64,000 nt of DNA from assembly GCF_039727615.1 (NCBI RefSeq), contig NZ_CP152474.1, positions 3,224,001 through 3,288,000 on the forward strand, given 5' to 3'. A program made the position numbers and the translations under genes. Shown in pieces: positions 22,003-22,948 of this stretch. The first letter of the stretch is position 1; the number at the start of each line of letters is the position of its first letter. The notes beneath the pieces were generated by a model that was not told where the DNA came from, did not search any database, and worked only from the letters and a program-made list of their open reading frames with translations. The stretch comes from Leclercia sp. S52. Its GTDB lineage: Bacteria; Pseudomonadota; Gammaproteobacteria; Enterobacterales; Enterobacteriaceae.

Positions 22003-22948
22003 TTAGCGCCCCTCTTTTCTCACACGCTCAATATGAATGGTGAGAAACATAATCTCTTCAGTAGTCAGCTCGCGCTGATAACTCTTTTGCAGATGCCGGG
22101 CGATCTTCTCGGCGCACACCCAGGCTTTACCGTAGTTCTCTTTTACCGCCGAGTGCAGCGTGGCATCGTCATCCTCGACCACGGTACGAGTCAGCATCCG
22201 CTGGGCGAAAAACTTCAGATGGGTGACGAAGCGCTGATAGCTTAGCGACTCCTCGTCATACTCCAGCTGCAAACTGTATTTCACCAGCTGCAGGATCTCC
22301 TGCATCACGCGGGTGACATGCATGACCTCCGGCATCTCGCTGTGCAGCTGGGCAGTGACCAGATGCAGCGCGATAAACCCGGCTTCATCTTCGCCCAGCT
22401 CCACGTCCAGCCGTTTAGCCGTTTAGCCGTTTAGCCGTTTAGCCGTTTAGCCGTTTAGCCGTTTAGCCGTTTAGCCGTTTAGCCGTTTAGCCGTTTAGCC
22501 GTTTAGCCGTTTAGCCGTTTAGCCGTTTAGCGATGATAGCCCGCGCCTGCTGGCCCAGCTCAAACTCTTTCGGGTAGAGCCGCTTAATATCCCACAGCAG
22601 CACGTTTTTGATCGCCAGCCCCTTCTTCTGCCGCTCAATCGCAAAGTAGCAGTGGTCGGTTAAGGTGATGTACAAACTCTCCTGCAGTTTCCCCAGCCGC
22701 TGCGCCGCCAGCCCGATAATACGGTCGCAGGTGGTCATCACTTCCAGCGGGATCTGGCTGAGTAACTCTCCCAGCCGCTGCACCAGCTCGTCGCTTTGCA
22801 GGGCAAACACTTTCTCGATGTTCTCTTTCGGGACAAGGTCGCCGGGGTGCTTTTGAAAGGCCAGCCCACGGCCCATCACCACCTGTTCGCGCCCCTGCTC
22901 ATCCAGAACAACCACCACATTGTTATTCAGTATTTTGGCGATTTTCAT
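22003..22948 (-). pseudogene. bglG: BglG transcriptional antiterminator interrupted by an 8-bp tandem repeat
   Basis: The N-terminal 145 codons read [14 protein letters not shown] (the CAT RNA-binding domain, residues 1-56) and most of PRD1, including [10 protein letters not shown] with the regulatory His near 100. Fifteen copies of an 8-bp unit then follow; TAA is read in the third copy (stop at 22511). After the repeat the original sequence resumes as LDVELGEDEAGFIALHL (second PRD1 His) and PRD2 to the end at 22003. Removing 14 copies (112 bp) gives a seamless 277-residue protein, against 278 in E. coli. As sequenced, the cell should make only a CAT plus partial PRD1 fragment. Confidence 0.9.
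22412..22531. repeat. Octanucleotide tandem repeat, 15 perfect copies of CGTTTAGC
   Basis: Exactly 120 bp, without a single mismatch, inside bglG; the coding-strand unit is GCTAAACG. The unit equals the native codons for Ala-Lys-Arg at this place, so the array looks like an expansion of a single ancestral copy. Because 8 is not divisible by 3, every reading frame through three or more copies meets TAA. Confidence 0.97.

Follow-up and report, generated by a model that had tools for sequence, protein, structure and literature searches.

A Tandem Octamer Array Within bglG

The window, as the whole 64,000-nucleotide stretch of Leclercia sp. S52 DNA is called here, belongs to a genome of a single contig (4,932,897 bases; completeness 99.96%) and carries a bgl operon on its minus strand, in which bglG encodes the antiterminator. 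Within the coding frame of bglG lies a tandem array (22409..22531, minus strand) made up of 15 perfect units of 8 bp and 3 further nt. TRF describes it at 22409-22531 with a period of 8, 15.4 copies, 100% matches and a score of 246, and a script count returned 15 full units, none with a mismatch. Both results uphold the preliminary description of this DNA, which had placed fifteen perfect 8-bp copies inside bglG at 22412..22531; that interval is exactly 15 x 8 bases, and TRF extends it by three further matching bases (22409-22411). A 16-mer of two units has 13 overlapping matches across the 4,932,897 bases of the genome, every one of them within this array. For a perfect array of such length a chance match is ruled out, and in this respect the locus resembles a contingency locus, in which a perfect tandem array of short units lies in or near a gene.

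The bglG start codon lies at 22948-22946 on the minus strand. In the frame that it sets, the array translates as AKRLNG*, and translation stops at 22511 after 145 amino acids, such that the truncated frame (22511..22948, minus strand) comprises 145 codons and the in-array TAA. Its product retains a complete CAT_RBD domain at residues 1-54 (PF03123; 84.1 bits, cut-off 25), as expected of a BglG/LicT antiterminator. It does not possess the two PRDs of that family: PRD1 runs to profile position 72 of 90, lacking positions 73-90, and the end of PRD1 together with the whole of PRD2 is encoded by a severed 3' part (22003..22404, minus strand), which is open, yet unreachable from the bglG start. Six solved structures are homologous to the 145-residue product, the best being 6twr_A, a 175-residue chain aligned over residues 1-140. 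The same-species allele of bglG encodes an intact protein of 277 amino acids with two PRD stretches. The single-copy state, to which the preliminary description had assigned a 277-codon BglG, is read here from naturally occurring alleles.

The remainder of the operon appears undamaged. The leader before bglG (22950..23035, minus strand) has a strong terminator-like fold (z -4.36, with 0/200 shuffles as good) and a terminator-like site at 22996-22977, from a scan that gave 3 sites against a shuffle mean of 1.2. A second terminator-like fold occupies the gap between bglG and bglF (21915..21995, minus strand; z -3.93, 0/200 shuffles as good), with a site at 21942-21930. Both folds lie where the leader RNA target (RAT) of this antiterminator family would be expected, and they may resemble the E. 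coli RAT; Rfam returned no match at either. Downstream, bglF (20000..21865, minus strand) encodes a beta-glucoside PTS EIIBCA in an intact open frame, the start codon of which was picked by eye inside a longer one, and a bglB-like gene (18593..19987, minus strand) encodes an intact glycosyl hydrolase family 1 protein of 464 amino acids. Silence of the bgl operon is a property of E. coli. In that species, BglG is described as binding its messenger at two sites, one on either side of bglG, and the dimerization required for its activity is assigned to its C-terminal part (PMC8836124). By analogy, the leader at 22950..23035 is the putative site of BglG action here. In Bacillus subtilis LicT and its kin, PRD1 is reported to carry an inhibitory phosphate and PRD2 an activating one (PMC7430163). 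Beyond the window, the genome encodes a second CAT_RBD protein on the plus strand (G000:C1:4699986-4700126), in an open frame of 315 residues; it is a possible BglG paralogue.

Every Frame Through the Array Is Closed

As the 8-nt unit is not divisible by three, every frame through the array reads the unit in all phases. The unit has a TAA phase on the coding strand and a TAG phase on the other, and the observed array contains five stops in each of its six frames. This is not a necessary property of octamers, since 42,480 of the 65,280 primitive 8-mers (65%) would yield an open array; the bglG unit does not. Stops in all frames leave copy-number cycling unable to switch bglG, and the locus thus departs from contingency loci in which several array lengths leave the frame open. 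Full-length BglG is possible with a single unit only, and all lengths of at least three units end in one common product. The statement in the preliminary description that only one copy yields full-length BglG consequently holds even more strongly than proposed, with stops in all six frames.

Related Genomes Carry a Single Unit

Comparison of bglG alleles across relatives, a check that the preliminary description had proposed, gave one unit's length throughout. The space between the sequences flanking the array was 8 nt in all 92 fetched loci, which comprise 29 from genus genomes and 63 named ones, partly overlapping, and represent 79 distinct matched sequences. Ten of ten further genus genomes have 112 bases (14 units) fewer than the window, judged by coordinates. 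The genus search found a match in 40 of 61 genomes, that is, the window's own, the 29 fetched and the 10 assessed by coordinates, with no match in the other 21. A dimer of the unit was detected in 1/61 genus genomes and 1/392 family genomes, both times the window's own. Related strains therefore show no array of differing copy number among the 92 loci and 10 genomes, in a sample where the same species is represented by one other genome. Copy number does differ between strains in the manner of a VNTR, with 15 units here and 1 in the same-species relative, although these are two states only.

The exact unit occurs in five of the 92 loci, two of which (L024 and L053) are the same-species allele. 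In this allele the single unit is followed by an 8-mer that matches it at 6/8 positions, and together they are the seed of the array. The in-array ending was absent from 105 homologues (of 152 candidates) of the 145-residue product, in a search whose length limits excluded full-length proteins. Mobile spread was considered as a source of the array and rejected, three units being unmatched in viral contigs. Plasmid-borne relatives of bglG are 60-90% identical (26 records), and E. coli yielded a partial match of 81.9% in 1/5426 genomes.

Several homologues depart from the common form in other ways. In a bglG of Kluyvera intermedia (L081), the reading frame is interrupted by a stop located a few codons ahead of the homologous unit. 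Two short BglG homologues (P0010 and P0075) change frame within about 10 residues past the homologous site, for which chance or error are possible explanations, and two others (P0053 and P0055) are without a stretch inside PRD1, with AAQRLG joined to VALEEDEAGF.

Codon changes private to each branch were counted at codons where two outgroups agree, and the numbers are small. On the branch leading to the window, synonymous and nonsynonymous changes number 4/0 in the 5' part of bglG, 7/1 in its 3' part, 18/1 in bglF and 15/1 in bglB; the corresponding counts for the same-species genome G002 are 2/1, 3/0, 13/1 and 17/2. These counts give no sign of long relaxed selection, which suggests that the bglG array expansion is probably recent.

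Repeats Elsewhere and Candidate Causes of Slippage

To place the array in its genomic setting, perfect arrays with periods of 4-40 were scanned in 80 stretches plus the window, which amount to 34% of the genome (1.664 Mb); rows reporting the bglG array at periods of 16, 24, 32 and 40 were dropped. Seventeen perfect arrays with at least 3 copies were found, the bglG array included, and the other 16 reach at most 3.33 copies. A sample of relatives (394 kb, mostly G055) contains 9 arrays with at least 3 copies, none above 3.33. A genome-wide expansion of repeats was rejected as an explanation, as the 1.664 Mb sampled contained no further long array with a period between 4 and 40. The window also contains an imperfect 84-bp tandem array of about 7 copies (28074-28655), between sanA-like and mglC-like genes, whose period exceeds the range scanned. 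The same-species G002 carries about 6 copies of it, and in G003 the version is 102 bp. The 84-bp unit is similar to a repeat dispersed over many sites in relatives, and has sub-threshold Rfam hits to naRNA4.

Neither a mutator background nor local folding was retained as a cause. The frames of mutS and mutL are free of stops. Outside the window, a homopolymer that differs by a single base divides recJ (G000:C1:4011525-4013178, minus strand) into two frames, where the same-species G002 has a 577-residue frame; the intact frame is shown for G002 only, four other relatives having been compared over a short stretch. Differences of the same +1 type recur across the assembly without an excess of base changes, so the split was counted as a probable sequencing error and recJ was given no weight as a mutator cause; if real, it would affect an exonuclease of interest for repeat stability. 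A tally of broken genes based on open reading frames was set aside apart from its recJ entries, since most of the apparent breaks resembled shadow frames on the opposite strand. Hairpin-driven slippage was likewise rejected, given that 200/200 shuffles fold at least as well as the array, on both strands.

Reliability of the Assembly

Single-base differences in homopolymers lean towards insertion in this assembly. Against G055, over 78 kb, such differences in runs of at least 5 are longer here in 14/15 cases. Three regions totalling 32 kb, compared with five or six relatives, contain 8 private +1 homopolymer differences, one of which sits at an alignment edge, and 0 private -1 differences. Positions 16575 and 27269 of the window are among the +1 sites. 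A stricter count over conserved runs found 3/73 lengthened here and 1/73 shortened in G002. Base changes along the branch show no excess (222 transitions and 61 transversions here vs 294 and 97 for G002). Among the relatives, NCTC13032 (L160) has 27 private single-base insertions and 5 single-base deletions in a 12.4-kb region. The +1 pattern in the present assembly probably reflects sequencing overcalls, while genuine slippage biased towards insertions is a possible alternative. Broken genes elsewhere in the assembly, recJ included, are not to be believed without reads. Homopolymer overcalls do not, however, account for 112 inserted bases of exact units. Within the window, a short-chain dehydrogenase-like gene, named by a guess from its sequence (16201-16981, minus strand), is divided into two frames by a single-base homopolymer difference, possibly a sequencing error; the gene is open in the same-species L158, where it encodes 259 amino acids, and the +1 difference is absent from five relatives.

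Origin and Consequences of the Array

We consider it likely that the array is a recent, strain-private slipped-strand expansion, which has left a revertible loss-of-function allele of bglG and not an evolved switch. The ancestral gene would have resembled the same-species allele, in which the 8-mer after the single unit agrees with it at 6/8 positions. Slipped-strand mispairing may then have produced a duplicate, from which the array would have grown to 15 copies. The first in-array TAA ends BglG at 145 amino acids, which removes the last part of PRD1 and the entire PRD2. The most likely effect would be the loss of regulated antitermination, such that bglF and bglB would not be inducible by beta-glucosides. 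Changes in copy number at three or more units would leave the product unaltered, and a return to full length would require contraction to one unit. Since PRD2 is missing, as is the C-terminal part to which BglG dimerization is ascribed, the protein has probably lost its function. With all frames closed, and with contraction to one unit as the only way back, the allele would be a defective one that might occasionally revert. Against loss of function, it is possible that the intact CAT domain of the 145-residue product could still act, and the second CAT_RBD protein might act on the bgl leader.

Could the array instead be an artefact of assembly or sequencing, the true genome having one unit or far fewer than 15? 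The array is missing from every relative examined, and all 8 private single-base homopolymer indels in the three regions are insertions, with runs longer in 14/15 comparisons with G055 and no base-change excess, all of which would suit an artefact. Such an origin is nevertheless unlikely, as homopolymer overcalls do not insert 112 bases of exact octamer, assembly completeness is 99.96%, and assembly usually collapses short repeats and seldom grows them. A phase-variable switch, turned on by contraction to one unit and off by expansion often enough for selection, is the most improbable of the readings considered here. Long perfect arrays are generally unstable, and this one sits in a regulator gene. 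Reversible inactivation by repeat copy change is, moreover, documented for icaC of Staphylococcus aureus (PMC4117637). Against a switch, the bglG array was found in one genome only among those searched, the relatives examined being single-unit; its unit closes all frames, although open arrays would result from 65% of primitive 8-mers; the single-unit on state offers no perfect repeat for slippage; and the sampled third of the genome (1.664 Mb) has no comparable array. The on/off element envisaged in the preliminary description is accordingly not borne out.

The expansion may alternatively be real and confer a gain of function, in which the 145-residue protein, comprising CAT and a partial PRD1, would antiterminate without inducer because its PTS-controlled parts are missing, and the operon would be on. 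Isolated CAT domains can act constitutively; the CAT_RBD here is complete; neither bglF and bglB nor the two leader folds show damage; and the CAT domains of LicT and SacY (55-residue chains), as well as CAT-PRD1 chains, are stable enough for solved structures. We regard this reading as quite unlikely, given that a PRD1 without profile positions 73-90 may misfold and that, in E. coli, the dimerization needed for activity is placed C-terminally (PMC8836124). A buffered regulator switch would combine these ideas: one unit would give PTS-controlled BglG, at least three units would always give the same inducer-free 145-residue CAT antiterminator, array length could drift freely, and rare contraction would restore control. 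This appears very unlikely, and we favour the loss-of-function allele produced by recent slipped-strand expansion.

Relation to Known Repeat Systems

Typing VNTR loci of enterobacteria have strain-specific counts of 6-9 bp units. The bglG array differs in that its relatives are single-unit, and there is therefore no repeat to type in them. Closer parallels exist among repeats that inactivate genes. As with the TTTA repeat of S. aureus icaC, a copy change within a coding gene shifts the frame and truncates the protein, and icaC off variants are reported in 9/103 genomes of natural isolates; there, however, single 4-bp steps are involved and reversible switching was shown, whereas in bglG a single unit has become fifteen, the stop comes with the unit, and no reversion was observed (PMC4117637). 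The 6-bp repeat in mutL of Salmonella and E. coli provides an enterobacterial case with one functional copy number (three), altered numbers being defective; unlike the bglG unit, it is in-frame, with three copies conserved in close relatives and no long array (PMC2955026). Octamer arrays of 12-15 copies are known near the hmw genes of Haemophilus influenzae, but these precede the genes and are credited with tuning their expression, whereas the bglG array lies inside a coding frame and stops it (PMC2651432). The allele is also akin to the erosion of bgl in E. coli, where loss of the operon is common and mutated operons are present in about 20% of strains from phylogroups A and B1; the section concerned lists deletions, insertions and unspecified mutations, and does not mention tandem expansion (PMC2646131).

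Inactivation by short-repeat change is thus already known, and what is distinct here is that one strain has fifteen units in place of one, with a unit that stops every frame. Of the claim in the preliminary description that bglG is off at all copy numbers but one, the frame rule stands; the property is not unique, mutL and icaC being precedents of inactivation by copy change. The titles and abstract openings of the matches listed contain no description of a bglG array or of a tandem repeat in a Leclercia gene, a weak result that leaves the subscription literature mostly uncovered, and in the one listed match joining bglG, tandem repeat and phase variation, the words occur in unrelated places (PMC9785288). 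No paper on the activity of truncated BglG was found among the matches listed.

Overall, the bglG allele is a clean natural example of a tandem repeat that seems to have arisen only shortly before it was sampled, with the seed still visible in a same-species relative and a single copy in the relatives examined. A long in-gene repeat alone is no evidence of phase variation, as this unit, which closes all frames, illustrates. We suggest that other candidate contingency repeats be checked for stop codons in each cyclic phase of their unit.
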